Source: Sinorhizobium medicae
GTDB taxonomy: Bacteria; Pseudomonadota; Alphaproteobacteria; Rhizobiales; Rhizobiaceae
Reading direction: 5' to 3'
Length of the DNA: 64,000 nucleotides
Assembly (NCBI RefSeq): GCF_007827695.1
Contig: NZ_VITA01000004.1
Span: 310,001 to 374,000, forward strand
In this document: piece by piece, positions 1,754 through 40,295 of the stretch
Layout of the letters: every line of letters begins with the position of its first letter
Numbering within the stretch: position 1 is the first letter of the stretch
Position numbers and translations under genes: made by a program
The notes under the pieces: model-generated
Told to the model about the DNA's origin: nothing
The model's database searches: none
Seen by the model: the letters and a program-made list of their open reading frames with translations, nothing else

Positions 1754-1769
1754 GGATTCACGTGAAACC
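1754..1769. other. parS-like ParB-binding site 1
   Basis: GGATTCACGTGAAACC, against the general bacterial parS consensus TGTTTCACGTGAAACA: the core and right arm are kept, and the left arm has T3 changed to A. That change creates GATTC, a GANTC methylation site. It is intergenic between asd and the transglycosylase gene, about 36 kb from the origin candidate. Confidence 0.7.
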
Positions 1770-1826
1770 TCAGCCGGCAGCGGATATTTCGAAGGCATCA
1801 CATTCGGGCAATCGACGGGGTATTTT

Positions 1827-2648
1827 ATGCACAAGGTGAAGATCGCAGCAGCCGGCCTTGCGGCCCTTATCTCAATCGCAGTTCTCCCGGGATCCGCCAG
1901 CGCGGCTCAGTGCGGCAATGACGGGAGCGGTTTCTCGGCCTGGCTGTCGGAGTTTAAGCGCGAAGCCGCAGGGAACGGCATCAATCCTTCCGTTGTCGAG
2001 CAGGCGCTCGCCAACGTCTCCTACAGCAGAGCAACGATTCGCGCCGATCGCGGCCAGAAGAGCTTCAAGCTGTCGCTCGACCAGTTCATGCAGAAGCGCG
2101 GCGGCCAGGTCATCATTTCGCGTGGCAAGAAGTTGCGGGCGCAAAATGCCCGGCTCTTCCAGAGCATCGAGCAGCGCTACGGCGTCCCCGCCGGCCCGTT
2201 GATCGCCATCTGGGGCATGGAGACCGGCTTCGGCTCGTTCTTGGGCAAGGAGCACACGCTCTCGGCCGTCTCGACGCTCGCCTATGACTGCCGCCGTTCG
2301 GATTATTTCACCAACCAGCTTTACGCCGCCCTCCAGCTCGTCGAGCGCGGCGATCTCAGCCCGGCGGCCCGCGGGGCGGCCCACGGCGAAATCGGCCAGA
2401 CCCAATTTCTCCCGGTGAACGTTCTGAAATACGGCGTGGACGGCGACGGCAACGGCCATGTCGACATGGTCCGCTCCAAGGCGGACGCGCTTGCCTCGAC
2501 TGCAAATTTCCTGCGCGGACACGGCTGGCAGCCGGGCGGCGGCTATCAGCCGGGCCAGGTCAACTTCGCCGCCATTCAGGGCTGGAACGCTGCCAGCGTC
2601 TACCAGCAGGCGATCGCCATCATCGGCGCCGCAATAGATGGTGGCTGA
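1827..2648 (+). CDS. Periplasmic lytic murein transglycosylase, MltB/SLT-2 type
   Basis: Cleaves the MurNAc-GlcNAc bond of peptidoglycan, forming 1,6-anhydro-muramyl ends. The 273-residue product opens with a Sec signal peptide (about residues 1-26, ending ASA). The catalytic glutamate is E132 in WGMETGFGSF, and the family motif GEIGQTQFLP follows. It is soluble rather than a lipoprotein, since no lipobox is visible, and shorter than E. coli MltB. It stands alone between a parS-like site and a transposase remnant. Confidence 0.9.
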   Translation: MHKVKIAAAGLAALISIAVLPGSASAAQCGNDGSGFSAWLSEFKREAAGNGINPSVVEQALANVSYSRATIRADRGQKSFKLSLDQFMQKRGGQVIISRGKKLRAQNARLFQSIEQRYGVPAGPLIAIWGMETGFGSFLGKEHTLSAVSTLAYDCRRSDYFTNQLYAALQLVERGDLSPAARGAAHGEIGQTQFLPVNVLKYGVDGDGNGHVDMVRSKADALASTANFLRGHGWQPGGGYQPGQVNFAAIQGWNAASVYQQAIAIIGAAIDGG

Positions 2649-2796
2649 AAACGAAGCTAGAAAGGGTGGGCGGTTTTCCACCCGCGGCCCGCTCTCGCTA
2701 GACTAGAGTCGGTCAGCCTTAAGCTGAATCGCCTGGGGATTCCCTTTTTGCTGCGATTGTCGTTCAAGATCATTGCTGGCGAGCAGGCCAGCAATG

Positions 2797-3092
2797 ATGG
2801 CGCGACCTGTTCTCTGGATTTACGCCAGCGCGTCGCCGACGCATTGGCCGGAGGCATGACGGTGCGGGCGGCCGCGTTGCGCTTTGGAATATCCGCGGCG
2901 ACGGCGGTGCGGATCGGCCAGCGCGAGCGGTCCGGCCGCGGTTTGGCGCCGGCCAAGATGGGTGGCCATGTCAAACCCATGCTGCGGGGCGCGGCGGCCG
3001 ATGAGGTTCACCGCCGGCTGGCGGCCAAGCCTGATTGGATGGTGCGGGCGCTTGCCGCCGATCTGGGTAGCGAGCACCAACGCAACAGATGA
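2797..3092 (+). pseudogene. Remnant of an IS630-type transposase (frameshifted and truncated)
   Basis: The frame ending at 3092 encodes SLDLRQRVADALAGG followed by an IS630-like helix-turn-helix (RAAALRFGISAATAVRI) and the KMGGH motif. The natural start MARP, at ATG 2797, is in another frame and joins SLDL only after a one-base shift near 2808. The protein ends at residue ~90 of the usual ~310, before the DDE catalytic residues. Upstream sequence from about 2715 looks like the insertion sequence leader. This is an old, inactive fragment; no right end is recognisable. Confidence 0.75.
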
Positions 3093-3202
3093 GTTCCCAG
3101 GACGTTCCGAAATACTATGCTGTACGGCGGTTCCACCCTGCTTTTCCTAAGTGCCCCGACAGAAATCGCGAAGACACGAAAGGACGTGTCGCTCTTTTGC
3201 TC

Positions 3203-3226
3203 TTTCTCCGCCGGCCGGCGGAGAAA
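3203..3226. repeat. 24-base perfect palindrome
   Basis: TTTCTCCGCCGG is followed directly by its reverse complement CCGGCGGAGAAA. It lies 27 bases beyond the carbonic anhydrase stop, so it may act as its 3' hairpin, or it may be part of a dispersed palindromic element left by the insertion event. There is no T-run on the carbonic anhydrase strand. Confidence 0.6.
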
Positions 3227-3252
3227 CTCTGATTGCGTTGGGCCCGCCGTCT

Positions 3253-3900
3253 TCACGATCCGGGCCGGGAGAAATCCCCGGTTTTGGCATCCATAACCCA
3301 GAGCTCGCCGGTCGAAATATCGAACCACGCGCCGTGCAGGCGCAGTTTTCCTTTCGACTCGAGAATGTTGACGCAGGGGAATGTCCTGAGATTGGCGATC
3401 GAATTGCGGATCGAAACCCGCTCGAGAGCGCGCTGGCGTTCAGCCTGGGTCATGAGCTCGTTGCTCTGGATCTGTTCGGCGGCGGGCTTCAGCAGGTTCA
3501 TCCAGCGGCCGATGAAATCGCCGGGGGAGAGGGGCTCCGCATCCGGGTCGAGTGCCGCCTTGATGCCGCCGCAGCGCCCGTGCCCCATGACGACGATATT
3601 GGTGACGCGCAGCGACTGGACTGCGAATTCGAGCGCGGCCGAAGTCGAATGATAATGCCCGTCCGGTTCGTATGGCGGCATCATGTTGGCGACGTTGCGC
3701 ACGACGAAGAGTTCTCCCGGGCCGGCATCGAATATCGTTTCGGGTGCCGCACGGGAATCGCAACAGGCGATAACCATCGTCCTTGGTTTCTGGCCGCTCT
3801 CGGCAAGCGTCTTGTAACGCTGCTGCTGTTCGTTGAAGCGGCCGCTCATGAAGTTGCGGTAGCCGGTCAGAAGATGTTCCGGAAAGCCCTGTATATCCAT
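3253..3900 (-). CDS. Beta-class carbonic anhydrase
   Basis: Interconverts CO2 and bicarbonate. Zinc-ligand motifs are clear: CCDSR (Cys46/Cys47-Asp48 of this model) and GHGRCGG (His107, Cys110). The Asp-Arg pair of the active site is in DSR. The 215-residue length fits the family. I chose ATG 3900 (MDIQGFPEHLL), because the helix PEHLLTGYRNF normally begins the protein and GGGG lies before this start. The in-frame ATG at 3936 would add 12 residues but has GGAAG directly touching it. Confidence 0.93.
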   Translation of the reverse strand: MDIQGFPEHLLTGYRNFMSGRFNEQQQRYKTLAESGQKPRTMVIACCDSRAAPETIFDAGPGELFVVRNVANMMPPYEPDGHYHSTSAALEFAVQSLRVTNIVVMGHGRCGGIKAALDPDAEPLSPGDFIGRWMNLLKPAAEQIQSNELMTQAERQRALERVSIRNSIANLRTFPCVNILESKGKLRLHGAWFDISTGELWVMDAKTGDFSRPGS

Positions 3901-4096
3901 CGGTAACCCCGTGTCATCCACTCGTTCATGCTGCATCTTCCGTGGTGCTCGTGTCTCTCATCGGAATTCGAGGAAACTTGCGGATAGCATGCCTGAGAGA
4001 CGGTCAGGGAAGCATGAAGCGTCGAACTGTTACAGCGAGCTTGGCCCAGCGGGAAGGACGAAATGCGACCAGAAGGCAATTCTTCCGTGTCGACCG

Positions 4097-4978
4097 CTAT
4101 TTCTTCCGCGCTTGGCTCGGATGCAGGAGGCGGCGCATCTGGACCATCGCCATCGGCGTCGCCAGGCTCGAAGCATCCTGCTCGAGCGTCAACTCATCGG
4201 CATCCCGTTTGCGGCTTCGCGCGATGATCTCATAGACGCTTGCGGTCGCCATCTGCAGCGCGCGCTCCTCCGGAAGCCCTTCGAGCAGTCGCGCCAGGAA
4301 TACGGCGGAGAGCAGGTCGCCGGTGCCGTTCGGCGGGCTGTCGATCAGCCGGTGCTCGGCGAGCAGGGCATGCCGCCCGGAGAGGTAGAGATTGCCCGTG
4401 CCGCCGCTCATCATCGGGATCGCAGACGTCACGAGTACGCGCGAAGGACCGAGATCGACCGCCGCCTCGAGGAGGTCTGCATTCGTCTCGAGGGCGGCGC
4501 CTGCCAACCAGGAAAGTTCGAACCGGTTGGGTGTGGCGAGCGTCGCAAGCGGCATTAGCAGTTCGCGAATGGCGGTGGCGATCTCTACCGGGACGTAAAG
4601 GCCGCCCGCATCGCCGATGATCGGATCACAGGCATAGAAGAGGTCGGGATTACGTTCGCGCAGCGCCGCCACGAGTCGAGCGACGCCCGCCGCCTGCGCC
4701 GGGGATCCCATATAACCGGAAAGAACCGCGCGCACCTCTCCGATCCAGGGTGCACGGATGAGATCGTCGATGATCGACCGGAAGTCCGCGTCCGGCATGA
4801 TCACCCGCGTCGACGGGCCGTGCCCGGGATGCCAGGGGAGAATGACCGTCGGCAATGCCCAGACCCGGTGCCCAAGCGTTTCCAGAGCGAAGACGGCCGC
4901 CCGGTTGCCGACTGCGCCCCGCACCACATGGCTGGAAATCACGATGATGGCACCGGGCGCGGCAGGCGATTCGGACAT
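4097..4978 (-). CDS. pdxY: Pyridoxal kinase
   Basis: Phosphorylates pyridoxal (and likely pyridoxine/pyridoxamine) to the 5'-phosphate in the vitamin B6 salvage pathway. It belongs to the ribokinase/PfkB-like fold, with the anion-hole motif NGTGDLLSAVF near residue 222 and the substrate region SSHVVRGAVGNRAA near the N-terminus. The start at ATG 4978 (MSESPAAPG) is preceded by GGAGGC-like purines. An upstream in-frame start at 5035 adds a low-complexity tail and is less likely. 293 residues is normal. Confidence 0.9.
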   Translation of the reverse strand: MSESPAAPGAIIVISSHVVRGAVGNRAAVFALETLGHRVWALPTVILPWHPGHGPSTRVIMPDADFRSIIDDLIRAPWIGEVRAVLSGYMGSPAQAAGVARLVAALRERNPDLFYACDPIIGDAGGLYVPVEIATAIRELLMPLATLATPNRFELSWLAGAALETNADLLEAAVDLGPSRVLVTSAIPMMSGGTGNLYLSGRHALLAEHRLIDSPPNGTGDLLSAVFLARLLEGLPEERALQMATASVYEIIARSRKRDADELTLEQDASSLATPMAMVQMRRLLHPSQARKK

Positions 4979-5260
4979 TGGAGGCCCCTTTTTTCCGTTC
5001 TGAATTGTGATCGCCCGGCCCTCACGGCCTGTCAACGGGCTCTCCCGAAGAGTGCCGGTGACATAAGCTTCGGCGATTTCTTGCGTTTCCGCCTTTTTTA
5101 GGAAATTTTCGCAAAATTGCCTTCGATTTAAATGGATTTAGGTGAAATCTTCGTGTTTTTCTCCGAAATCCGGCTCGGTTCTGCCGAAATCCGTCATAAA
5201 AACGGTCGCCAATGATCATGGTTCTGATAGGTTCATCTATCATCAGTGGAGAGCGGTTTG

Positions 5261-10048: not shown

Positions 10049-10172
10049 CAAAGTCCCTGCGGCCGTAGTTCCCCGGAGGTTCGAATCCGCTTCCGGGCGA
10101 AGTTCGTTCTTCATTGCACAAGCCGCCCCGATCGATCGCGGCGGGCTTGTGCAAGCGGCGGGGAGGGAAGGC

Positions 10173-11564: not shown

Positions 11565-11619
11565 GGGGGCCACAACCGAGGTTGTGGCATTTCGCCTGCA
11601 GCAGGATCAGAGGCGCCGC

Positions 11620-13230: not shown

Positions 13231-13381
13231 CGACCTTGCTCCTTTGGCAGCGCCGGACGCGTGAGGAGGAGGTTCCGGCGGTTGGGCTGGCTGCCCGTTA
13301 GCATAGCTTCATCCGGGAAGAAACCTTCGGCGTGTCGCAGAGCGTGGAATTGCCCGTCTGGACGGTTCCCGGCAGCGTCCA

Positions 13382-15088: not shown

Positions 15089-15333
15089 GACTGCAAGACC
15101 TTCGAAGCGCAAAGCACCTAGCGGATTGCCTGGCGCAGCACCGTGCGTCTCCAGAAACGCAGAAAAGGTCGCTGTTGAGTGGCTGCAGACGCTTGAATCG
15201 GAATTGATTCGAAGGTCAAGCAGGAGACCGGAATCGTGCGGGAAAGATCATTAAATATTTATCAATCCTGAAGTCATTGATAGGCGGACCGCCTCAATGC
15301 GTCAATTGTCACGATCAAACCTGTCGACAAGCA

Positions 15334-17705: not shown

Positions 17706-17790
17706 GAATGAGCTCCAACCAGTTCGTGATCCGTTCCGCACTCTGTGGAAAGCCGCCTGCGGCCGCATCGCTCCATCAGCCCTGTGCGAG

Positions 17791-17806
17791 GGTTTCACGT
17801 GAATCA
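17791..17806. other. parS-like ParB-binding site 2
   Basis: GGTTTCACGTGAATCA. The core and left arm match parS. The right arm has the mirror image of the site 1 change, again creating a GANTC site (GAATC at 17801-17805). It is intergenic, between the divergent htpX and SDHAF4-like genes. Confidence 0.7.
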
Positions 17807-17886
17807 GCTTTTCCGCTTGCACGGAATGCCTATATGATGGGGATAAACCGCCAGCTCTTCAATATCGTTACGGAAACAGTGCCCGT

Positions 17887-18087: not shown

Positions 18088-18173
18088 GGCTTGCCTCGAA
18101 ATTTAGTTTCGGATGCGAATCGGTCGAGCGCTTTGGCGTTGAGGCGCCGCGGGAGCCCCTCAATGCGCCGCGA

Positions 18174-21265: not shown

Positions 21266-23173
21266 TTAAACACCAATCCCCTTCGCCCGCAGCACATCGG
21301 CTATTTCTTCCAGAATTGCTGGATCGTCGATCGTCGCCGGCATTTTCCAGGGTTGGCGATCAATGATCTTCTGGATCGTGGAGCGCAGGATCTTGCCGGA
21401 CCGCGTCTTGGGGAGGCGCTTGACGCAAACCGCGGTCCTGAAGGCGGCTACCGGCCCGATGCGCTCGCGCACGAGAGCGATGACCTCCTTCTCTATTTCC
21501 GCTGTTTCACGGGAAACATTGGCGTTGACGACGAGGAAGCCTGCCGGAACCTGCCCTTTGAGGGAGTCAGCAATACCGATCACGGCACACTCCGCGACAT
21601 CCGGATGGCTGGCGCAGACCTCTTCCATGGCGCCCGTCGACAGCCGATGTCCCGCCACATTGATGATGTCGTCGGTCCGCGCCATGATGAAGATGTAGCC
21701 GTCGTCGTCGACATAGCCGGCATCGGCCGTCTTGTAGAAGCCGGGATATTCTTCGAGATAGGCTGCATGAAAGCGGCGATCGGCATTCCAGAGCGTCGGC
21801 AGGCAGCCGGGCGGCAACGGCAGCTTGATCACGACATTGCCGAGCGTGCCGGATCCTACCGGATGGCCCGCGTCATCCACGACCTGTACGTCATAACCCG
21901 GAAGGGGAACCGCCGGCGAACCGTATTTCACCGGCAGGAGGCCAAGACCCAGCGGATTGCCGGCGACGGGCCAGCCTGTTTCCGTCTGCCACCAATGATC
22001 GATGACCGGGACCTTCAGCGCCCGTTCCGCCCAGCGGATCGTGTCCGGGTCGGCCCGCTCGCCCGCGAGGTAGAGCGCCCGAAATTTCGATAGGTCGTAT
22101 CGCTGCACGTGATTTGCTTCCGGATCCTCCTTGCGGATCGCACGCAGTGCCGTCGGCGCGGTGAACGTGACGGCGACGCCGTGTTCGGAAATGACGCGCC
22201 AATAGGTTCCGGGGTCGGGTGTGCCGACCGGCTTTCCTTCGAAGAGGATCGATGTGGATCCGTTGAGGAGCGGACCATAGACGATATAGGAGTGGCCGAC
22301 GACCCAGCCGATATCGGAAGCGGCCCAGAACACCTCGCCGGCATTCACGCCGAAAAAATGCTCCATCGACCATCTGAGCGCGACCATATGCCCGCCATTG
22401 TCACGCACAACGCCTTTCGGCTGTCCGGTCGTTCCGGAAGTATAGAGCACATAGAGCGGATCCGTCGAGGCGACGGAGGCGCAAGGTGCCTCCTCGCCTT
22501 TATCCTTGGCCTCCGCAAGCGCCTCGGCGAAGTCGATGTCGCGATCTTGAACCATGGCGGCATCGAGCATGCCGCGCTGGTAGATCAGGCAATGGGCGGG
22601 CTTGTGGGTTGCCGTTTCAATCGCCTGGTCGAGCAGAGGCTTGTAGGCCACGGTCCGCCCGGGCTCGAGCCCGCAGCTTGCGGAGACGACGAGTTTCGCC
22701 TGGCAGTCATCGATGCGGACGGCCAGCTCATTGGCGGCAAAACCGCCGAAAACGACGGAATGCACCGCGCCGATCCGCGCTGCCGCGAGCATGGCGATAG
22801 CGGCCTGCGGGATCATCGGCATGTAGATGATGATGCGATCGCCTTTGACTACGCCGAGCTCGTGGTAGATTGCAGCCATTGCCTTCACATCGGCTAGCAG
22901 GTCCGCATAGGAGATCTTCTCGGTCACGCCGGTGACGGGACTGTCATATATGAGGGCCGGTTGCTCGCCACGGCCAGCCTCGACATGCCGGTCTAGGCAA
23001 TTGTGACAGGTGTTGGTCATGCCGTCCGGAAACCAGTGGCCATAGGTGCCGCCCTCCGGGTCGAAAACGCGCTCCGGCTGCTTGATCCAGTCGATCGCCG
23101 ATGCGGCATCTGCCCAGAATCCCTGCGGATCAGCTTTCCACGCGGCGTACACTTCGCGATAGCGGCTCGCCAT
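21266..23173 (-). CDS. prpE: Propionate-CoA ligase (propionyl-CoA synthetase)
   Basis: An AMP-forming acyl-CoA synthetase of the PrpE/ACSS3 group, related to acsA but distinct: it opens MASRYREVYAAWKADPQGFW. Motifs are TSGTTGQPKGVVRDNGGH, DHWWQTETGWP and KTRSGKILRSTIQK. 635 residues. It would feed propionate into methylmalonyl-CoA metabolism. ATG 23173 follows GGAACGGG. The coding sequence contains a parS-like site, encoding NVSRETAE near residue 552. Acetoacetate or another short acid cannot be excluded as substrate. Confidence 0.85.
   Translation of the reverse strand: MASRYREVYAAWKADPQGFWADAASAIDWIKQPERVFDPEGGTYGHWFPDGMTNTCHNCLDRHVEAGRGEQPALIYDSPVTGVTEKISYADLLADVKAMAAIYHELGVVKGDRIIIYMPMIPQAAIAMLAAARIGAVHSVVFGGFAANELAVRIDDCQAKLVVSASCGLEPGRTVAYKPLLDQAIETATHKPAHCLIYQRGMLDAAMVQDRDIDFAEALAEAKDKGEEAPCASVASTDPLYVLYTSGTTGQPKGVVRDNGGHMVALRWSMEHFFGVNAGEVFWAASDIGWVVGHSYIVYGPLLNGSTSILFEGKPVGTPDPGTYWRVISEHGVAVTFTAPTALRAIRKEDPEANHVQRYDLSKFRALYLAGERADPDTIRWAERALKVPVIDHWWQTETGWPVAGNPLGLGLLPVKYGSPAVPLPGYDVQVVDDAGHPVGSGTLGNVVIKLPLPPGCLPTLWNADRRFHAAYLEEYPGFYKTADAGYVDDDGYIFIMARTDDIINVAGHRLSTGAMEEVCASHPDVAECAVIGIADSLKGQVPAGFLVVNANVSRETAEIEKEVIALVRERIGPVAAFRTAVCVKRLPKTRSGKILRSTIQKIIDRQPWKMPATIDDPAILEEIADVLRAKGIGV
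21503..21518. other. parS-like site 3 (one core mismatch), inside prpE
   Basis: TGTTTCACGGGAAACA differs from the parS consensus only at position 10 (T to G), and has both outer T/A bases that most other sites here lack. It is read on the prpE strand as Val-Ser-Arg-Glu-Thr. The broken CACGTG core may weaken ParB binding. Confidence 0.5.
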
Positions 23174-27364: not shown

Positions 27365-27376
27365 TCCGAACGTCAG

Positions 27377-28408: not shown

Positions 28409-28442
28409 GTTCCGGGACCCACCAACGCCGCCGCGCCACGCT

Positions 28443-29333
28443 TCAGCGCCGCTCGAGCAGCCTGCAGATCTCTTCCAGCTGATCGAGCGTCTTATACGTG
28501 ATCTTGAGGTGGCCACCACTGGCCTTGTGGTTGACGGTCACCTCGAGGCCGAGACTATCCGACAAGGTCCGCTCCAAGGCCAGTGTATCGGCGTCCTTCT
28601 CATCGCGCTGGCGCGCTTTCGCATAATTGGGATCGTTCTGCGACCTTATGTCGTTCTGCGCCAACCTCTCGACTTCGCGGACCGAAAGTCCCTTTGCCAC
28701 CACTGCGCGCGCCAATGCGACCGGGTCGGAGGTGGGTATGAGCGCACGGGCATGGCCGGCGGAGAGGCTGCCGTCGGACAGCATATCGCGGACTGGCTCC
28801 GGCAGTTTTAGCAGGCGCAGGCTGTTCGCAACATGGCTCCGGCTCTTGCCGATGATATCGCCGAGATCGTTCTGCGTGTATCCATGCTCCGCGATCAGCT
28901 GTTCGTAGCCAAGCGCCTCTTCGAGGGGATTGAGGTCGGACCGCTGGACATTCTCGACAATCGCAATCTCAAGCGCCGTCCTGTCGTCCACATCGCGCAC
29001 GATAACAGGTATTTCGGTGAAGCCTGCAAGCTGCGCCGCCCTCCAGCGCCGTTCGCCTGCAATAATTTCATAGCGGTCGGACCCAATCGTGCGGACGACG
29101 ACTGGCTGGACGATCCCGTGCTGACGGATCGAGCTTGCGAGGTCCTGGAGCTCAGCCTCGTCAAACTGCCGCCGAGGGTTACGAGGATTGCGGGAAACGA
29201 ACTCTATCGGGATACGCCGGTCCGCGCTGACCGGAGAGACGGGAGCACTGCCGGTTTGCAACGGCTGGTCCATTTCCCCGATTAACGCTGCTAGGCCACG
29301 ACCAAGACGTCGCTTGGAGCTGTCATCGTTCAT
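28443..29333 (-). CDS. parB: Chromosome-partitioning protein ParB
   Basis: Binds parS sites, loads as a CTP-dependent sliding clamp and guides origin segregation with ParA. 296 residues: N-terminal ParA-activating segment (KRRLGRGLAALIGE), the CTP-binding ParB/sulfiredoxin domain with GERRWRAAQLAG, the HTH domain (TQNDLGDIIGKSRSHVANSLRLL) that reads parS, and the C-terminal dimerisation domain. Likely targets are the parS-like sites listed in this window. 32 bases separate it from parA. Confidence 0.97.
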   Translation of the reverse strand: MNDDSSKRRLGRGLAALIGEMDQPLQTGSAPVSPVSADRRIPIEFVSRNPRNPRRQFDEAELQDLASSIRQHGIVQPVVVRTIGSDRYEIIAGERRWRAAQLAGFTEIPVIVRDVDDRTALEIAIVENVQRSDLNPLEEALGYEQLIAEHGYTQNDLGDIIGKSRSHVANSLRLLKLPEPVRDMLSDGSLSAGHARALIPTSDPVALARAVVAKGLSVREVERLAQNDIRSQNDPNYAKARQRDEKDADTLALERTLSDSLGLEVTVNHKASGGHLKITYKTLDQLEEICRLLERR

Positions 29334-29365
29334 CTGACACCTGATTAATTACGGTTCCGAAACGG

Positions 29366-30160
29366 TCAGGCAGCCTTCCGCTGCCTCTCGCGTTGAATCA
29401 CTTCCGAGGCAAGCTGCAGATAGGCCTGACTTCCGGCGCACTTCAGATCATACAAGATGGCCGGTTTGCCATAGGATGGCGCCTCGGACACCCGAACGTT
29501 GCGGGGGATCAGGGTATGATAAACCTTATCCCCCAGATGAAGGCGAACGTCGCTGACTACCTGTTGCGCCAGGTTGTTGCGCGAGTCGAACATGGTCAGA
29601 ACGATGCCCTGAATATCAAGCGCAGGGTTCACCGTTCGACGAACCTGATCGACCGTCTCCAGCAGCTGGCTTAATCCTTCCAAGGCGAAAAATTCGCATT
29701 GGAGGGGGACGAGAACCGAATGCGCCGCAGCCATCGCGTTCATCGTCAAAAGATTAAAGGATGGTGGGCAGTCAACCAGAATATAGGAGTAGGCGAGTGC
29801 TTCCGCCGAACCCAAGGCCTTGCGCAACCGGAACACCCGATCCGACTCCTTGGCGATTTCCATCTCGACGCCGAGCAGATCCATCGTGGATGGAACAATG
29901 GACAGGTTCGGCACGGCCGTGTCCTGCGCGATCTCGGCGATGGAATGCGTGCCCATCATAAGCTCATAGGAGGAAAGGTGGCGCGCGCGCCGCTGTATAC
30001 CAAGCCCGGTGCTGGCGTTACCCTGCGGATCAAGATCGACAATAAGAACTTTCTCGCCAATAGCGGCCAAGGCCGTCGCAAGATTAATTGCAGTGGTCGT
30101 CTTGCCGACGCCACCTTTCTGGTTGGCAATGGTGATGATCCGGTTCTTTGGGCCAAACAT
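29366..30160 (-). CDS. parA: Chromosome-partitioning ATPase ParA
   Basis: Deviant-Walker ATPase that forms a nucleoid-bound gradient pulling the ParB-parS complex. The deviant Walker A, KGGVGKTTTAINLATA, is at residues 15-30; Walker B-like VDLDPQGNAS and DCPPSFN follow. ATG 30160 (MFGPKNRIITI) gives 264 residues, the common length; ATG 30178 would overlap rsmG and is less likely. It sits 14 bases after rsmG, so rsmG-parA-parB are probably co-transcribed. Confidence 0.97.
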   Translation of the reverse strand: MFGPKNRIITIANQKGGVGKTTTAINLATALAAIGEKVLIVDLDPQGNASTGLGIQRRARHLSSYELMMGTHSIAEIAQDTAVPNLSIVPSTMDLLGVEMEIAKESDRVFRLRKALGSAEALAYSYILVDCPPSFNLLTMNAMAAAHSVLVPLQCEFFALEGLSQLLETVDQVRRTVNPALDIQGIVLTMFDSRNNLAQQVVSDVRLHLGDKVYHTLIPRNVRVSEAPSYGKPAILYDLKCAGSQAYLQLASEVIQRERQRKAA

Positions 30161-30174
30161 GTTTCGCTCGCCTA

Positions 30175-30816
30175 TCACTTCGTCCGACGTGAAAGATTTG
30201 CGACCTCGAGCACGACTGAATCCGGCTCGACGACACTTGCGTGTTTTACCAGATCGAATTGAAAGCGGCTAACGGCTTTATCGATTTCAAGTTGATAATC
30301 CCGCCCTTTATGAAAAAACGCGATGGTTCGGGATGCTTCGACTGTCATCCAGGGTGCGCAATATTCCAGTAACTGGCTTAAATCGGAGAGCGCACGCGCC
30401 GATATGGCGTCGCAAGTGGGAATTTCAGCGGGCGCCTCTTCGATTCGAATCGGATGGACGGTCCCCCTTGCAGCGGTCTCGCGAAGCGCGACTCGCAGAA
30501 AGGCGGCTTTCTTGTTGTTGCTTTCGACCAAATGCACCCAGCCAGACTCTGTCTCGGAGAGGCAAATCGCAGTGATCACACCTGGGAAGCCGCCGCCGCT
30601 TCCGAGATCGACCCAGGTCTTGGGCGCAGGGGAGAGTTGAAAAAGCTGAATGCTATCGAGAATATGGCGGCGCCATAGATCGTCCAATGTGGAAGGGGCG
30701 ACGAGGTTGATCGACCGCGCCCACTTCTGGAAGAGCGAAGCGAAGTGTTCCAGTTTCTCGACGGTTTCACGTGAAACACGCAATCCGTTCAGCGCTCGAT
30801 TGAGACTCGTTTGCAT
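30175..30816 (-). CDS. rsmG: 16S rRNA (guanine-527-N7)-methyltransferase
   Basis: Methylates G527 of 16S rRNA; loss often gives streptomycin tolerance. SAM-binding loop [14 protein letters not shown], then [17 protein letters not shown] 30816 ([12 protein letters not shown]) gives 213 residues; the frame stays open to 30870 but those residues run into mnmG. The N-terminal sequence [11 protein letters not shown] is encoded by a parS-like site, so the protein sequence here is partly set by centromere function. It is 8 bases after mnmG. Confidence 0.93.
30763..30778. other. parS-like ParB-binding site 4, inside rsmG
   Basis: GGTTTCACGTGAAACA matches the parS consensus at 15 of 16 positions (first T is G), with both arms and the core intact. 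It lies 0.6 kb from parA and 1.4 kb from parB and is read as Val-Ser-Arg-Glu-Thr in RsmG. With site 5 it is the best candidate for a high-affinity site. Confidence 0.85.
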
Positions 30817-30824
30817 TGCAGAAC

Positions 30825-32696: not shown

Positions 32697-32754
32697 AGTA
32701 TCGCTCCGAATTTACGCACATTTTGATCAAAAGTTCCATATCTTCGACTGGACG

Positions 32755-32770
32755 TTTCACGTGAAACGGC
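32755..32770. other. parS-like ParB-binding site 5 (perfect palindrome)
   Basis: CGTTTCACGTGAAACG is a perfect 16-base palindrome containing the invariant 14-base GTTTCACGTGAAAC of parS. It is intergenic between mnmE and mnmG, 5 kb from the origin candidate. Confidence 0.88.
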
Positions 32771-32813
32771 TCAATGACTCGCCTGCGTTGTATTCGCTCT
32801 CACAGGTAATAGT

Positions 32814-34136
32814 CTATTTTCCGATGCAGAACTCCGAGAATATCACGTCTAAAAGTTTCTCTACATCGACGCGTCCTGTTATTCTGCCCAGCGCGTCACC
32901 GGCTTGCCGTAGCTGTTCAGCCTGAAGTTCGAGCTCTCTGGCCTCCATGCTACGCACCAGCGCTGCGCCGGCCTGCCGCAAGCAATCGACATGACGCCTC
33001 CGCGATGGCATGGACAGGGCCGTATTGCCCGCCAGATCAGGGAGATGTGCCTGAAGCATAGCCAGCAACTTATCCATACCCTCGCCGGTTCTGGTCGAGA
33101 GAAACACGTCCGCCTCGGAAGTCTTCCAACGCGGCATCGGCCGATCAACTTTGGTAGCGACGCGTATAACCGGGACACTCTTTCCCGGCTGCCATTCGTC
33201 CAAGCGGAAATCACTCGGCTTTTCCGATAGCAGGAGCACAAGATCGGCATCGGCGATAACCTGGCGGGCACGCCGAATCCCTTCCCGCTCAACCACTTCA
33301 TCCGTTTCGCGCAGGCCTGCCGTGTCGAAGAGCTTGACTGAGAATCCGGCTAACGAAAGGTCGACAGACAGAACATCCCGTGTCGTGCCGGCAATCTCCG
33401 TAACGATAGCTATATCCCTTTGCGCCAAAGCGTTGAGCAGGCTGGACTTGCCGGCATTGGGTTCGCCGGCAATAACGATTTTGAGCCCGTCACGAATGAT
33501 CTCGGCGACACCAGCGCGGGCGATGTGCTCATCTATCTCTTCTCGCAGCCTGCCGATATCGGTCCAGATCGCCGCACTGACGGAACCCGGAATATCGTCC
33601 TCGTCGGCGAAATCGAGCTCCGCCTCGATCATGGCCCGTGCATGGGTCAGGCGTCGGGCCCAGCCCGCGTAAAGAGCCGACTGGCCTCCTCCGGACTGCT
33701 CAACCGCAAGTCGCCGCTGCATCTCCGTCTCGGCCGCAATCAGATCCGCCAGTCCCTCCACTTCGACCAGATCCAGCTTGCCGTTCTGAAAAGCTCGCCG
33801 CGCAAATTCTCCCGCTTCCGCATGCCTCAGCCCATCCATCGCGGCCAGCTCGTCCAGAATGGCACTCACCACGGCTCTTCCGCCGTGAACCTGCAACTCG
33901 CAGCAATCCTCACCTGTGAAAGAGGCCGGACCGGGGAAGTAGAGGACGAGGCCGCTGTCCAGGATGTCACTGTTTCGAGTCCGAATCGTTCTCAAGGTCG
34001 CAACACGCGCCGGCGGCAGTGGGCCACACAATCGCGCCAGGGCGTCGGCTGTTGCCGGACCACTGACGCGGATCAATGCGACCCCAGCCGGTGGCGAGCC
34101 GCTCGACAGCGCGTAGATCGTATCGGTGAATTGCAT
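32814..34136 (-). CDS. mnmE: tRNA modification GTPase MnmE
   Basis: Dimeric GTPase partner of MnmG. 440 residues: N-terminal tetrahydrofolate-binding domain (DTIYALSSGSPPAGVALIRVSG), helical domain with inserted G domain (G1 GEPNAGKSSLLNAL, G2/G3 region EIAGTTRD and DTAGLRET), and the diagnostic C-terminus FCIGK whose cysteine is conserved. The G4 motif is less usual (TKVDRP). A 117-base gap containing a parS-like site separates it from mnmG. Confidence 0.96.
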   Translation of the reverse strand: MQFTDTIYALSSGSPPAGVALIRVSGPATADALARLCGPLPPARVATLRTIRTRNSDILDSGLVLYFPGPASFTGEDCCELQVHGGRAVVSAILDELAAMDGLRHAEAGEFARRAFQNGKLDLVEVEGLADLIAAETEMQRRLAVEQSGGGQSALYAGWARRLTHARAMIEAELDFADEDDIPGSVSAAIWTDIGRLREEIDEHIARAGVAEIIRDGLKIVIAGEPNAGKSSLLNALAQRDIAIVTEIAGTTRDVLSVDLSLAGFSVKLFDTAGLRETDEVVEREGIRRARQVIADADLVLLLSEKPSDFRLDEWQPGKSVPVIRVATKVDRPMPRWKTSEADVFLSTRTGEGMDKLLAMLQAHLPDLAGNTALSMPSRRRHVDCLRQAGAALVRSMEARELELQAEQLRQAGDALGRITGRVDVEKLLDVIFSEFCIGK

Positions 34137-34341
34137 CGCTTACCGGTTCATCAATGGCGAACGGCGCTAAGCCGCAGGCCGGGCCTGCCGTCTCGGCTTC
34201 GTCAATATCGGAATCGGGCGTAGCCGGCAGGATGCGCGGTCACTGTACCTGCGAATTCCTCGGCATTTTCGGCCGTGAAGTTGGGCCTTATGCACGCGGC
34301 CGGATTGAAAATCAAGTACCGCGGTGCCTGCTATCGGGCCG

Positions 34342-34357
34342 CGTTTCACGTGAATCA
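34342..34357. other. parS-like ParB-binding site 6
   Basis: CGTTTCACGTGAATCA: intact left arm and core, right arm with the recurrent substitution that creates GAATC, a GANTC site, at 34352-34356. It lies in the 391-base gap between rho and mnmE. Confidence 0.7.
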
Positions 34358-34431
34358 TTCGATGTGCCGAAACTGGCGGCAAGCAGGAAGCAAAGAAACC
34401 ACGAGATCCGGGCGCAATCGCTCTTGCTTCG

Positions 34432-34484
34432 TCTCCCCGCCGTAATGGGGAGAGGTACCGGCAGGCGGCAAAAGCTGCCGCCTG
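34432..34484. repeat. Two hairpins downstream of rho, RIME-like
   Basis: TCTCCCC/GGGGAGA (34432-34438, 34447-34453) is followed by CAGGCGGCA/TGCCGCCTG (34462-34470, 34476-34484). The first resembles a decayed form of the RIME palindrome at 18174; the second is a perfect 9-base hairpin with a 5-base loop. They lie 3' of rho and may end its transcript or stabilise its message. The rest of the 34137-34527 gap holds only parS site 6 and no gene I can support. Confidence 0.5.
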
Positions 34485-34527
34485 TGGTTCATGCGCCGCT
34501 GTGGGGGCTTAAACCGCTCTCCCGCGG

Positions 34528-35793
34528 CTATGTATTCATCGAGTCGAAGAAGTCGCCGTTCGTCTTCGTCTGCTTGAGCTTGTCGATGAGGAATTCGATC
34601 GCATCGGTCGTCCCCATCGGCGCGAGAATGCGGCGAAGAACGAAGATCTTCTGCAGGTCCTGACGCGGGACCAGGAGATCTTCCTTACGCGTGCCGGATT
34701 TGAGAATATCCATTGACGGGAAGATGCGCTTGTCTGCCACCTTGCGGTCCAGAACGATTTCCGAGTTGCCGGTGCCCTTGAACTCTTCGAAGATCACTTC
34801 ATCCATTCGGCTGCCGGTGTCGATCAGCGCCGTCGCAATGATCGTCAGCGACCCGCCTTCCTCGATGTTACGAGCCGCGCCGAAGAAGCGCTTGGGGCGC
34901 TGCAGCGCATTGGCGTCGACACCACCGGTCAGGACCTTGCCCGATGAGGGAACGACTGTGTTGTATGCGCGGCCGAGACGAGTGATCGAATCGAGCAGGA
35001 TCACCACATCGCGCCCATGTTCCACGAGGCGCTTTGCCTTCTCGATCACCATTTCCGCGACCTGTACGTGGCGTGTTGCCGGCTCGTCGAAGGTCGAGGA
35101 TACCACCTCGCCCTTGACCGAACGCTGCATGTCCGTGACTTCCTCCGGCCGCTCGTCGATCAGGAGGACGATCAGATAGCACTCCGGGTGATTCGCCGTG
35201 ATCGAATGCGCGATATTCTGCAGAAGAACCGTTTTACCGGTACGAGGCGGCGCAACGATCAAGCCACGCTGGCCTTTGCCGAGCGGCGCGACCAGATCTA
35301 TGACACGTGCCGACAGGTCCTTGGAGGTCGGGACCTCGAGTTCCATCTTGAAGCGCTCGTTCGGATAGAGCGGCGTCAGGTTGTCGAAGTGCACCTTGTG
35401 GCGGATCTTCTCCGGATCGTCGAAATTGATCGTGTTGACCTTCAGCAGTGCGAAATAGCGCTCGCCTTCCTTGGGTCCGCGGATCGGACCCTCGACCGTG
35501 TCGCCGGTCTTCAGCGAGAAGCGGCGGATCTGGGAAGGCGAAATGTAGATATCGTCCGGGCCTGGAAGATAATTCGCATTCGCCGAGCGCAGGAAGCCAA
35601 ATCCGTCCTGCAGGACCTCGACGACACCCTCGCCGATGATCTCGATCTCCTGCTGAGCCAGCATTTTGAGGATCGCGAACATCAGCTCCTGCTTGCGCAT
35701 CGTGCTGGCATTCTCCACCTCGAGCTCTTCGGCAAGGGCCAGAAGGTCGGTCGGAGTCTTGTTCTTAAGTTCTTGAAGCTTCATTTCAGCCAT
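34528..35793 (-). CDS. rho: Transcription termination factor Rho
   Basis: Hexameric RNA helicase that ends transcription at rut sites. 421 residues: N-terminal [21 protein letters not shown] helical bundle, cold-shock-like RNA domain ([26 protein letters not shown]), Walker [17 protein letters not shown], Walker B region [16 protein letters not shown], and the Q-loop/R-loop [24 protein letters not shown] 35793. Transcribed towards mnmE, with a gap that includes hairpins and a parS-like site. Confidence 0.97.
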
Positions 35794-35916
35794 GAAGGGT
35801 CCGTGCTTGATCTGGGATTGGGAGCCGGCGCGATTTGTAAGGGAGCTGCAAGGGGGAAGAGGCAGGCTCTAAAACTTCGTCACTGGCCAAGGGGAGAAGG
35901 AGATGAGGGAAAATAG

Positions 35917-35932
35917 CGATTCACGTGAAACG
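35917..35932. other. parS-like ParB-binding site 7
   Basis: CGATTCACGTGAAACG: right arm and core intact, left arm with the T-to-A change creating GATTC (35918-35922), a GANTC site. Intergenic between rho and hemJ, 1.6 kb from the origin candidate. Confidence 0.7.
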
Positions 35933-35954
35933 CCGCAAGGGGTCGCTCCAAATT

Positions 35955-35973
35955 AGCTGCAACTATTGCAGCT
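35955..35973. repeat. Inverted repeat 3' of hemJ
   Basis: AGCTGCAA-CTA-TTGCAGCT: perfect 8-base arms and a 3-base loop, 16 bases past the hemJ stop. It could be the terminator of the hemE-hemJ operon, although only a weak T-rich stretch follows on that strand. Confidence 0.5.
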
Positions 35974-35988
35974 GCGAATCGATTGAAT

Positions 35989-36531
35989 TCAAAATGGCTT
36001 CACGACAACGAGGATGACAATGACGATCATCAGCAGGGTCGGGGCCTCGTTCATCAGCCTCCAGTAGCGGGCATCCCGGCGATTCTCGTCTCGCTGGAAG
36101 ACTTTGACTGCGCGGCTGAAATGCACATGTACCATGGTCAGCAGAAAAACGCAGAAAATCTTCGCATGGAGCCACCCCCCGTGAAAACCGTAAACGCCCC
36201 AGGCGAGGTAAAGACCAAGCACCCAGGAGATCATCATTGCCGGGTTCATGATGACCTTGAGCAACCGCTGTTCCATCATCTTGAAGGTCTCCGACTGCTC
36301 CGATCCCGGTGCGGCGTCGGTGTGGTAGATGAAGAGGCGCGGCATGTAGAGAAGGGCCGCCATCCATGAGATCACCGCGATGACGTGAAGCGCCTTGATC
36401 CAAAGATAGAAATCGTCCGGCTGCCAAGCGAAGAGGCCGATCAGCAAGGCCGTAAAGGCGGAAAGCGCGATAGCAGCCCGAAACCGCGCCCGTCTGCCGG
36501 GGCCGCGGTCGGTTTGACGTTCGCCTCTCAT
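35989..36531 (-). CDS. hemJ: Protoporphyrinogen IX oxidase, HemJ family
   Basis: Membrane enzyme converting protoporphyrinogen IX to protoporphyrin IX in haem synthesis, the form found in many Alphaproteobacteria lacking HemG/HemY. 180 residues with about four hydrophobic segments, including [20 protein letters not shown] with its conserved histidine and [22 protein letters not shown] 36531 overlaps the hemE stop by four bases (ATGA), indicating coupling. The longer frame upstream lies inside hemE and is not real. Confidence 0.9.
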
Positions 36532-37559
36532 CGGCGTCCTCGGACGCGAGACACAAGCGCGGCGACATGCTCCGGATCCGCGTCCGGCGTGATGCCGTGG
36601 CCCAGATTGAAGATCAGCGGCCCTTGCCCGAGGACGTCCAGGATACGGTCGATTCCATGCTCCAGCGCCGCGCCACCGGCCACGACCCGCACCGGATCGA
36701 GATTGCCCTGAACCGGCCCGTCCTTCTGCAGCTCCGCTGCGAAGGAGAGCGGCACCGACCAATCGAGGCCGATTGCGTCCGCGCCGGTCGCTTGCCGATA
36801 GTTCTTCAACAGGATGCCGGCGCCTTTCGCAAAGGCGATGATTTTCGCCGAAGGCCGGCGGGACCGGACCGAGGCGATGATCCGCCGGACAGGCTCCACC
36901 GCGTAACGTTGGAATTCTTCCTCGCCGAGCACACCGGCCCAGGAGTCGAAGATTTGCACCGCATCCGCACCGCGATCGATCTGTTCGACCAGGTAGTCGG
37001 CGGAAATATCGGCAAGCAGCGCCAGAAGCCGTTCAAAGGCCTTGGGATGACGATAGGCGAAGAGGCGCGCCGGCGCCTGGTCTGGCGTCCCGCGACCGGC
37101 GATCATATAGGTCGCCACGGTCCAGGGCGCCCCGCAAAAGCCGAGCAGCGTGATTTCCGCCGCCAATTCGCCCCTGAGTCGAGAGACCGTCTCGAAGACC
37201 GGGGCAAGGTGCTCGATGACGCCTGTCTGGCTCAGCTGCGCTATACCGTCCTCGTCGATCGGATCCATCCGCGGTCCCTGCCCCTCTTCGAAGCGAACAT
37301 TTCGATTGAGTGCATCGGGAACGACCAGAATATCGGAGAAGAGGATCGCGGCATCGAAGCCGTAGCGGCGGATCGGCTGCAATGTCACTTCGACTGCAAG
37401 CTCGGGTGTGTAGCAGAGGTCGAGGAAGCTTCCGGCCTTTATCCGGGTTGCCCTGTATTCGGGGAGGTAGCGTCCAGCCTGCCGCATCAGCCAGATGGGG
37501 GGAGGCGTGAGCGATCTCCCGTTCAAAACCTCTAGCACTTTGCGATGCGTTCCGCTCAC
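36528..37559 (-). CDS. hemE: Uroporphyrinogen decarboxylase
   Basis: Decarboxylates the four acetate groups of uroporphyrinogen III to give coproporphyrinogen III. 343 residues; N-terminal signature [17 protein letters not shown], and the aspartate-containing substrate loop [11 protein letters not shown]. The C-terminus has [19 protein letters not shown] 37559. In Caulobacter and rhizobia the chromosomal origin adjoins hemE, which supports the origin call next door. Confidence 0.97.
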
Positions 37560-37570
37560 TTGCCGCTTCC

Positions 37571-37612
37571 TAATATAAAAATAAAACTGAATTTATAAGG
37601 TTTCTATTTCTT
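37571..37612. other. AT-rich tract, candidate DNA unwinding element
   Basis: About 85% A/T over 42 bases directly upstream of hemE, the most A/T-rich stretch I noticed in the window. It could serve both as the unwinding element of the origin and as part of the hemE promoter. Confidence 0.5.
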
Positions 37613-37828
37613 AGAGTCGGTGAGTATCAAGGATTAAAATCGATCCTCGTTCCATCCAGTCCGCCTCGATCGCCGGCAATCGGCCGGGAGAGATTCCAGG
37701 CAGATCACGGCCCAAGCGGGGAAAATTTGGGAAAACGCGGTAAAGTCAGAGACTTGCCAAAGGCCAGCAGCTTGCGCTTCCTGTGAATGGGGAGTCGATC
37801 GCGTGACAATTTGTCTTGGCGATGAGTC

Positions 37829-37837
37829 TTTTCCACA
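37829..37837 (+). other. DnaA box TTTTCCACA
   Basis: One mismatch to TTATCCACA. A GANTC site (GAGTC, 37824-37828) abuts it directly, so CcrM methylation could lie next to DnaA contacts. Confidence 0.65.
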
Positions 37838-37888
37838 TGCAAGGGAAAGCGATTTCCTGCGGGGGTCCGATTGTGAACAACTCGGCAC

Positions 37889-37897
37889 TTTTCCACT
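37889..37897 (+). other. DnaA-like box TTTTCCACT
   Basis: Two mismatches to TTATCCACA, but it shares the TTTTCCAC core of the box 60 bases away and has the same orientation. Confidence 0.5.
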
Positions 37898-37963
37898 TGC
37901 CTGATGGCAGGCGGCGCCGTTAGCTGTTTTTGTCCCGCCCTATCAACAGACCGCGGAGAATTG

Positions 37964-37972
37964 CGTGGAAAA
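37964..37972 (-). other. DnaA-like box TTTTCCACG over the ppsR start codon
   Basis: The inverted core TTTTCCAC covers the GTG start of ppsR, 75 bases from the previous box. If bound, DnaA would block or tune ppsR expression. It may also simply be coding sequence. Confidence 0.35.
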
Positions 37973-38786
37973 CCGAAAAAACTACTTCCACCTGCATCTT
38001 ATCTCCGATTCGACTGGCGAGACCCTGATCGCCGCGGGACGTGCGGCGGCCGCACAATTTCAATCCTCCCACGCGCTGGAACATGTCTACCCGCTGATCC
38101 GAAACCGGAAGCAGCTGATGCAGGTCATGGAAGCGGTTGACGGCGCCCCGGGCATCGTCCTTTACACGATCGTCGACCGAGAGCTTGCCGGCCTCATCGA
38201 TCAAAGGTGCCGTGAGATCGGCGTCCCTTGCGTCTCGGTGCTCGACCCGATCATCGAGCTTTTTCAATCCTATCTCGGTTCGCCTTCGCGCCGCCGCTCT
38301 GGCGCGCAGCACGTGATGGATGCCGAGTATTTTGCGCGCATAGAGGCTCTGAACTTCACGATGGATCATGACGACGGCCAGATCCCCGCCGATTTCGACG
38401 AGGCGGATGTGGTGCTCGTGGGCGTGAGCCGCACGTCGAAGACGCCGACGAGCATCTATCTGGCCAATCGCGGCATAAAGACGGCCAATATCCCGATCGT
38501 GCCGGGCGTGTCCCTGCCGGAGGGGCTGCTGACCGCGACGAAGCCGCTGATCGTCGGCCTCATTGCATCCGCCGAGCGGCTGTCCCAGGTGCGCCAGCAC
38601 CGGGTGCTCGGAACGACGCAGAGTTTCCACGGAGAAGATTATACGGACCGGGCTGCGATCGCCGAGGAGTTGAAATATGCCCGCTCGCTATGCGCGCGCA
38701 ACAACTGGCCGCTGATCGATGTGACGCGCCGTTCGATCGAAGAGACGGCCGCAGCGATCGTTGCCCTGCGGCCGCGGCTCAGATAG
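37965..38786 (+). CDS. Pyruvate phosphate dikinase / PEP synthase regulatory protein
   Basis: Bifunctional ADP-dependent kinase and Pi-dependent pyrophosphorylase that switches PPDK or PEP synthase off and on by threonine phosphorylation (DUF299 family). 273 residues with the N-terminal [13 protein letters not shown] and the nucleotide-binding segment [18 protein letters not shown] near residue 156. GTG 37965 gives [12 protein letters not shown]. Being the first gene right of the origin, it is replicated first. Whether the partner is PpdK or PpsA is not visible here. Confidence 0.9.
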
Positions 38787-38842
38787 AGCGAAGCGGAAGG
38801 AATACAGCTCCAGGATTGCGGACAGAAACCGGAACGGAAAAC

Positions 38843-39442
38843 ATGAGACCCTCGCTCGTATTGGCATCGGCCAGTCCCTTCCGCCGCACTCTGCTCGTCA
38901 ATGCGGGACTTTCGTTCGAGGCCCGGGCGGCTGAAATTGACGAGCGTGCACTCGAGCAGCCGCTCGAATCGTCGGGCGCGTCGCCGGCCGATGTGGCGCT
39001 TGTGCTTGCCGAGGCAAAGGCGAAGGATGTCGCGCGACATTTTCCGGGGGCTCTCGTGATCGGCTCCGATCAGACGATGTCGCTTGGAAGCCGGGTCTAT
39101 CACAAGCCCCGGGATTTGGCGGAAGCCGCCGAACATCTCCTGTCGCTCTCGGGCAAGACGCACAGCCTCAACAGTGCGGTGGTGCTCATTCGCGATGACG
39201 CGGTTGTCTGGCGGCATGTTTCCACTGCAAGCATGACGGTGCGGCGGCTGAGACAGGGCTTCATCGATCGGCATCTCGAACGCGTGGGCGCCAAGGCGCT
39301 GACAAGCGTCGGCGCCTATCAGCTTGAAGGTGAGGGCATCCAGCTGTTCGAGAGGATAGATGGCGATTACTTCACCATCCTCGGACTGCCGATGCTGCCG
39401 CTCCTGTCCAGACTTCGCGAAATGGGTGCGATCGATGCGTGA
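38843..39442 (+). CDS. maf: Maf-like nucleoside triphosphate pyrophosphatase
   Basis: House-cleaning hydrolase of non-canonical nucleotides; some family members inhibit septation. 199 residues starting [14 protein letters not shown], with the family's substrate motif SASP-x-R-R, and [11 protein letters not shown] holding the catalytic aspartate. ATG 38843 is chosen; upstream codons in frame overlap ppsR. It overlaps aroE by eight bases and is in the ppsR-maf-aroE-coaE order. Confidence 0.9.
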
Positions 39443-40295
39443 TTCACGTGAAACATTTGTTAACCATGCCTTCGTCGCGGGCTATCCGGTGAAGCATTCG
39501 CGCTCGCCGCTCATTCATGGCTACTGGCTGAAGCGCTTCGGAATTCAGGGAAGCTACCGTGCCCACGAGGTCACGTCCGACGCCTTCCCGGATTTCATGC
39601 GGCAGATCAAGGAGGGAACCGCCGGCTTCTGCGGCGGCAATGTCACGATTCCGCATAAAGAGGCCGCCTTTCGGCTGTCCGACCGGCCGGACGAATTGAG
39701 CGCCGAACTGGGGGCCGCCAACACGCTCTGGCTCGAGAATGGGACCATCCGCGCGACGAACACCGATGGTCGCGGTTTCGTTGCCAATCTCGATGAGCGC
39801 GCCAAAGGCTGGGACCGCATCTCGGCCGCGGTCATTCTCGGCGCCGGCGGTGCCAGCCGTGCGGTGATCCAGGCAATCCGCGACCGCGGGGTGAAGGCGA
39901 TCCATGTGGTGAACCGCACGCCCGAGCGGGCGAGGGAACTCGCGGATCGCTTCGGTAGCGCGGTGCACGCGCATTCCATGGCCGCGCTTCCAGAAGTTCT
40001 TTCCGGCGCCGGGCTTTTCGTGAACACGACGTCACTCGGAATGGATGGCGAGCCTGCGCCGGCGATCGACTTTTCGAAGCTGGCGCGGGACGCCGTCGTG
40101 ACTGATATCGTCTATGTGCCGTTGAAGACGCCGCTGCTTCGGCAGGCCGAAGAACAGGGCTTTCGCGTTGTCGATGGACTTGGCATGCTCCTCCACCAGG
40201 CGGCGCCCGGATTCGAAAAATGGTTCGGCCTCAGGCCGGTCGTCGACGAAGCGCTCAGAGAGATCATCATCAGCGATATGGACAAGCACGCATGA
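39435..40295 (+). CDS. aroE: Shikimate dehydrogenase
   Basis: NADPH-dependent reduction of 3-dehydroshikimate in aromatic amino acid synthesis. 286 residues: substrate-binding [12 protein letters not shown], catalytic lysine in [11 protein letters not shown], Rossmann loop [12 protein letters not shown] and NTTSLGM. ATG 39435 is inside the last codons of maf. The N-terminus [13 protein letters not shown] includes Ser-Arg-Glu-Thr encoded by a parS-like site, so residues 3-7 may be constrained by DNA function rather than enzyme function. Its stop overlaps the coaE start (ATGA). Confidence 0.95.
39440..39455. other. parS-like ParB-binding site 8, maf/aroE junction
   Basis: TGATTCACGTGAAACA matches parS at 15 of 16 positions; the only change, T3 to A, creates GATTC (39441-39445), a GANTC site. 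It covers the maf stop and the first codons of aroE, 1.5 kb right of the origin candidate, and is the only core-intact site on that side. Confidence 0.78.

Follow-up and report, generated by a model that had tools for sequence, protein, structure and literature searches.

A CcrM methylation motif confined to one arm of auxiliary parS sites around the chromosomal parAB locus of Sinorhizobium medicae

Why should sites read by a chromosome partition protein also contain the target of a cell cycle methyltransferase? The question is raised by a stretch of 64,000 nucleotides from Sinorhizobium medicae (assembly GCF_007827695.1, contig NZ_VITA01000004.1, positions 310,001 to 374,000; the whole stretch is called the window here), which contains parA, parB, and a cluster of parS sites, the centromeric sequences bound by ParB. 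The initial annotation of the window had noted that five of its seven parS sites with an intact core carry GATTC, or GAATC in the opposite arm, in one arm only, which creates GANTC, the target of the methyltransferase CcrM, and had proposed that methylation of these sites could set ParB affinity by replication timing. Taken as a whole, this interpretation is partly supported: the change is non-random, the same sites and arms recur in relatives, and the constraint resembles that of GANTC rather than a mere tolerance of A.

All five 16-mers read as described, with GATTC in the left arm of those starting at 1754, 35917, and 39440 and GAATC in the right arm of those starting at 17791 and 34342. 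Expressed as 14-mers, the window holds two perfect sites, GTTTCACGTGAAAC, and five of the form GAYTCACGTGAAAC, all of which read GATTC, confined to a single arm. The perfect 14-mers lie at 30764..30777, inside the 5' end of rsmG (gidB), and at 32754..32767, between mnmG (gidA) and mnmE (trmE); their 16-mers start at 30763 and 32753, and the coordinate of 32755 given earlier for the second is off by 1 or 2. The GATTC arm is on the left (plus strand) at 1755..1768, between genes for a semialdehyde dehydrogenase and a lytic transglycosylase, at 35918..35931, between rho and the gene that follows it (hemJ in Sinorhizobium meliloti), and at 39441..39454, overlapping the maf stop codon and the aroE start. 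It is on the right (minus strand, hence GAATC when read on the plus strand) at 17792..17805, on the start of an M48 peptidase gene or a little upstream of it, and at 34343..34356, between mnmE and rho.

A pattern search of the whole genome (6.5 Mb in 68 contigs) with up to two mismatches to parS returned 14 parS-like sites, against 7 for a reversed-pattern control. They comprised 2 perfect sites, 6 with the single-arm T-to-A change, 2 with another single mismatch, and 4 scattered matches with two mismatches; no double GATTC...GAATC site was among them. The sixth T-to-A site (G000:C4:399118) lies beyond the window, and the eight perfect or T-to-A sites are all on one contig, inside 88 kb around parAB. 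The sites have the properties of true parS, being 16-bp palindromes with a CACGTG core near parAB and the origin, and the window encodes a cognate ParB with ParB_N, HTH, and C-terminal dimerization domains. Sites of the form GAYTCACGTGAAAC, five in the window, were absent from 100 shuffles. With 156 GANTCs in the 64 kb, the probability that at least five of seven 14-mers hold one is about 1.6e-7, and six of the eight one-mismatch sites represent this one of 21 arm-folded substitutions (P of about 3e-7). Chance as the cause is ruled out by the shuffles, the whole-genome count, and these P values. Since the sites share ancestry and are not independent, the comparative data weigh more than the chance P values.

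We therefore turn to the relatives. Over 12 kb, the window shows about 83% identity to Sinorhizobium records. Sites of the form GWTTCACGTGAAWC were counted in 33 genomes of the genus and numbered 6 to 9 in each. Where they were listed fully (G001 to G009) or partly (G010), the sites around parB matched those of the window in the order of their states and arms, except where a site was missing: that between rho and hemJ (35918) in G002 and G009 and an outer, eighth site in G004. In S. meliloti strain Ak57 all seven sites recur, in unchanged order and with the same arms, at L268:8619 (the 1755 site, same arm), L268:24374 (the 17792 site, 87 bases upstream of htpX, which is the M48 peptidase gene), L268:37575, L268:39578, L268:41150, L268:42692, and L269:1869. 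The entry that contains L268 and L269, CP090106.1, is named S. meliloti Ak57 pSymB; it carries the genes parAB, hemE, and gyrB from around the chromosomal origin, and the name looks wrong. In Sinorhizobium K101, the rho-hemJ site keeps GATTC though its opposite arm is changed, and a stretch from Shinella holds four GATTC-armed sites. When sites and flanks were aligned for seven genus genomes (the window and six others), all 14 columns of the 34343 site were invariant versus 23 of 478 columns in its flanks, which are unalignable, and all 14 columns of the 35918 site versus 199 of 318 flank columns. The A of the 34343 site stayed unchanged while its surroundings were rewritten and so looks, from this alignment, to have been kept by selection.

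How far does the pattern extend beyond the genus? Up to 20 kb around parB was taken from 60 of the 145 genomes of the order Hyphomicrobiales that had a ParB match, from 40 of the 127 such genomes in other orders of the class, and from 40 genomes of other classes of the phylum, together with 80 named loci, nearly all titled as alphaproteobacterial and sorted by their titles; three whose titles name no alphaproteobacterium (L228, L258, and L261) were left among the other Alphaproteobacteria. These regional loci cover about 20 kb, some less, and miss sites farther away. One locus, L200, stands with the other alphaproteobacteria in the double-site expectation (named loci split 31/49) and, by its ParB, with the Hyphomicrobiales in the one-mismatch, tree, near-parB, and GANTC density counts (32/48). 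The T-to-A change made up 72 of the 104 one-mismatch sites near parB in the 60 order genomes and 27 of 36 in the named Hyphomicrobiales. The corresponding shares were 1 of 12 in the class's other orders, 0 of 15 among the remaining named loci, and 1 of 7 in loci from outside the class. Random position-3 changes in related genomes, which the initial annotation had named as an outcome that would refute its proposal, were looked for and not seen. Named carriers of the GATTC arm include Rhizobium, Mesorhizobium, Brucella, Bartonella, Cohaesibacter, and Pseudovibrio, while one Methylobacterium and one Methylocystis locus had no GATTC-armed site. On a ParB tree of 133 rows (a quick tree in which 63 of 130 inner branches are weak), the GATTC-arm state changes at least 17 times, so it seems to have arisen and disappeared repeatedly, almost always inside the order.

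Is it GANTC that is kept, or merely the A? Sites with a second substitution in the same arm bear on this point. In the 297 order genomes, sites of the form GWVTCACGTGAAAC numbered 35 (GACTC 28, GTCTC 4, GAATC 1, GAGTC 1, GTGTC 1; reversed-pattern control, 3) and those of the form GWTVCACGTGAAAC numbered 68 (GTTCC 54, GTTGC 5, GTTAC 3, GATCC 3, GATGC 3; control, 14), with GTTGC, GTTAC, GATCC, and GATGC at about chance level. When the second base of the 14-mer is A, the third base goes to C and the fourth stays; when it is T, the opposite holds. This gives 28 GACTC and 3 GATCC in A arms versus 4 GTCTC and 54 GTTCC in T arms (Fisher p of 1e-15 by site, a count inflated by kinship and by arrays, as in Mesorhizobium). 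The contrast was 6:3 versus 2:20 when the families holding each type were counted by hand (p of 0.003), and 18:0 versus 2:6 near parB in 92 Hyphomicrobiales loci, where chance matches are negligible (p of 1.2e-4). Under an additive model of ParB affinity, tolerance should be ranked alike in the two kinds of arm, while the reversal is what a requirement for GANTC predicts; judged on these sequences, ParB tolerance alone would not easily explain the reversed second substitutions. Within A arms, G, A, T, and C are fixed, and only T or C occurs above chance as the N. GANTC itself occurs at 0.38 of its first-order expectation in order loci; the value is 0.45 for the class's other orders and 0.73 beyond the class (L033 to L092 and L096 to L175). 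Close to perfect sites in the order, its density was 7.8 per kb within 30 bp versus 2.1 at 500 to 1500 bp; it was raised at 27 non-alphaproteobacterial sites too (5.6 versus 3.4 per kb). On balance, selection probably keeps GANTC itself and not merely the A.

A reading in which these sites carry two codes, with methylation-dependent loading of ParB at the GANTC-armed ones, is in our tentative judgment the best explanation, although it falls somewhat short of an even chance. One arm (GTTTCAC) would be a perfect ParB half-site, and the other (GAYTCAC) would still be read by ParB, as conservation alone suggests for the GATTC-arm variants, while also serving as a CcrM target. Selection would keep both readings; the sequences show the A at the same site and in the same arm, second changes that respect G-A-N-T-C, and never a change in both arms. 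The genome has its own CcrM (L093:1384-2514, 376 amino acids), which matches CcrMI 6PBD at 5e-160, and matches to CcrM turned up in 146 of 150 genomes of the order and in 104 of 142 of the class. The enzyme works late in the cycle, which leaves GANTCs close to the origin hemimethylated for much of S phase. With the sites in the origin region, fork passage would turn fully methylated arms hemimethylated early in S phase, and this state would last until CcrM returns. N6-methyladenine on both strands of the arm would sit in the major groove, where the recognition helix of ParB inserts, beside the guanine that R173 contacts in Caulobacter ParB (PMC7383237, in the part available). ParB nucleation at the auxiliary, GANTC-armed sites may then follow their methylation state, whereas the perfect sites in rsmG and between mnmG and mnmE would load ParB at all times; overall, ParB loading (or release) would be stronger at origins that have just been replicated. 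In Agrobacterium tumefaciens, the GANTC signal is described as lower near ori1 than near the terminus (PMC11514494, open text). That methylation affects the action of ParB at GANTC-armed sites is plausible, though we would put it slightly below an even balance. The fuller proposal is unlikely as it stands, namely that the Hyphomicrobiales centromere is methylation gated, its perfect sites loading constitutively and its GANTC-armed sites shifting at hemimethylation and being reset with CcrM, which would mark new origins.

Several observations weigh against the dual-code reading. In a sample of 40 genomes from other orders, 35 had a full-length CcrM match by hand count, yet the 40 loci held 76 perfect sites and a single one-mismatch GATTC site (L102); one of these loci, L109, also has a two-mismatch site with GATTC. 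Across lineages, the pattern does not follow the methylase, and the mere presence of CcrM is ruled out as a sufficient cause by the CcrM-bearing other orders with perfect sites. Within the order itself, five Bradyrhizobium loci have perfect arms only, with 4 to 6 perfect sites each (two of the five have an added core-changed site), and outside the class one GATTC site was found (L172). The A at 39441 also belongs to the TGA stop codon of maf, an ordinary coding reason for its conservation; the codon-level look was limited to this site. As second substitutions, N = A and N = G were each seen once, at chance level, so that the choice at N is limited; ParB may still require a pyrimidine at this position, or ParB itself may read GAYTC as an alternative arm. 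Depletion or overexpression of CcrM in A. tumefaciens, whose parS letters lie outside our comparison, gave no visible change in ori1 duplication or partitioning as far as the open text of PMC11514494 goes. In Caulobacter, methylation of GANTCs at the parS locus was unchanged by CcrM stabilization or by foreign GANTC methylases (PMC5172544), and the available text of that paper is silent on whether these GANTCs fall inside parS.

The strongest alternative dispenses with methylation: auxiliary sites would have one strong and one weakened arm to tune ParB affinity, T to A would be the cheapest weakening in Hyphomicrobiales, and GANTC would be a by-product. We regard this as a serious possibility, if less probable than the dual-code reading. 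It draws on the rule of one perfect arm. The claim that both arms never change together, weak on the seven sites alone, gained support from the larger sets: the double site GATTCACGTGAATC was found in none of 297 whole order genomes, and the regional set of 91 loci held 0 doubles versus about 11 expected with independent arms. GATTC-type arms are present in 50 of 92 Hyphomicrobiales loci, and 48 of these 50 also hold a perfect site. Pseudomonas aeruginosa ParB bound sites with one intact arm better than those with both arms altered (PMC4368675), and in Caulobacter one half of parS is the conserved one (PMC5815017, figure legend), both according to the accessible parts of these papers. A need of ParB for one good arm is enough to account for the exactly-one-arm rule, and CcrM need not be involved in it. 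Affinity tuning also fits the other one-arm changes of other lineages, such as GTTCC in family f28, and the lack of the pattern in the sampled CcrM-bearing genomes of other orders. What it accounts for poorly is the second substitutions, where the additive model wants the same tolerance order in both kinds of arm and the order reverses, and the fixation of the A and of its arm side in genus relatives, at one site amid unalignable flanks. Nor does the protein offer a reason, as the recognition-helix columns of ParB hardly differ between users and nonusers of the arm; they are nearly alike in 34 order loci with and 26 without such arms. By the same comparison, a change in ParB specificity was rejected as an evident cause.

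Occlusion is a less probable alternative, and an improbable one: ParB bound to the arms would keep CcrM off, occupied sites would stay unmethylated, and GANTC would record occupancy and could make it heritable. DNA-binding proteins such as MucR and CtrA do occlude GANTCs from CcrM, and the insensitivity of the Caulobacter parS-locus GANTCs to excess CcrM would fit as well (both PMC5172544); the available text of the same paper, however, leaves unstated whether these GANTCs are methylated or unmethylated, and no methylation data for Hyphomicrobiales parS were found in the open literature searched. Very improbable is the idea that the GANTCs serve promoters under GcrA/CcrM control (mnmE, hemJ, and neighbors) and overlap parS by an accident of short intergenic regions: several sites do lie between genes, a conserved promoter-like block stands about 48 bp from the 34343 site, and other GANTCs are modestly commoner within 25 bp of GATTC-armed sites (3.5 versus 1.9 per kb far away), but the motif keeps one fixed register inside parS across different gene contexts and arrays, and 36 of 81 GATTC-armed sites have a parS neighbor within 70 bp.

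Beside the 34343 parS, two short blocks, CTTATGCA and AAATCAAG, at 34287-34316, are conserved in the seven genomes amid unalignable sequence; on the minus strand they resemble the -10 and -35 elements of an mnmE promoter. When 34100-36000 was scanned for promoters and terminators, no signal exceeded the shuffles. Two further one-mismatch, parS-like sites in the window have a changed core and no GANTC. One, GTTTCACGGGAAAC, at 21504..21517 inside an open reading frame for an AMP-binding enzyme, is also found in Sinorhizobium K101 (L270:11497), where its spacing to the neighboring parS is nearly that of the window, and in a further rhizobial locus (L189:15992). The other, GTTTCATGTGAAAC, at 63111..63124, is a possible weak site; an identical one-mismatch site stands at S. 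meliloti L269:26886, at a similar distance beyond maf-aroE, and its core change is also used by L087, L089, and L090 (families f30 and f31), which have no perfect site in the stretch.

The partition genes lie on the minus strand, chromosomal parB (296 amino acids; ParB_N, HTH_ParB, and ParB_C) at 28443..29333 and parA (270 amino acids; AAA_31) at 29366..30178. The region reads parB, parA, rsmG, mnmG, mnmE, rho, hemE, a kinase/pyrophosphorylase gene, maf, and aroE; this set of genes is the usual neighborhood of the alphaproteobacterial origin. Elsewhere, a Hyphomicrobiales metagenome-assembled genome has 12 perfect parS within 4 kb near parB (L202:4488-8486), and arrays grown with perfect sites, as there and in Bradyrhizobium, represent an alternative to GANTC-armed arrays. 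Four Rhodobacterales loci (L219:17427, L222:17325, L241:17633, and L260:17744) share a site GCATCACGTGAAAC, about equally far from parB in each, which is another one-arm variant that recurs.

So far, the position of parS near the origin largely explains how segregation is timed to replication. If the dual-code reading is right, the DNA itself would encode a direct connection of fork passage with CcrM and ParB loading. Should methylation turn out not to matter, this arm-exact variant, spread across the lineage and showing a reversed tolerance at the bases that follow, would still mean that how ParB reads an arm depends on context and goes beyond the consensus.

How does the arrangement compare with known systems? 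In Escherichia coli, Dam and SeqA control oriC through hemimethylation. Hemimethylation after fork passage would be the clock here too, unlike there with CcrM and GANTC in place of Dam and GATC, at a segregation rather than an initiation site, and with a putative reader protein. The chromosomal ParABS centromere (consensus TGTTTCACGTGAAACA) is one that our sites resemble in sequence, in clustering at parAB and rho-hemE, and in the domains of ParB (ParB_N, HTH, and C-terminal); they differ in the CcrM target that exactly one arm of each auxiliary site contains, a feature without mention in the accessible parS literature searched. A GANTC overlapping or beside the site of another protein is known for CcrM with GcrA, MucR, or CtrA (PMC5172544, PMC11514494, PMC9040568), and in the repABC promoter of A. 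tumefaciens a GANTC lies close to two predicted RepB parS sites and was suggested to matter for partitioning (PMC11514494). In the available text, those cases concern promoters or plasmid-type repABC modules, with GANTC beside parS and not stated to be inside it (PMC9040568), whereas here it lies inside a chromosomal ParB site. For GANTC inside chromosomal parS we found no description in the open literature, supplements and subscription papers being outside the search, and a search for the letters GATTCACGTGAAAC likewise returned no paper in the open literature. The sites themselves are parS sites; the novelty lies in a second code that is conserved in one of the arms.

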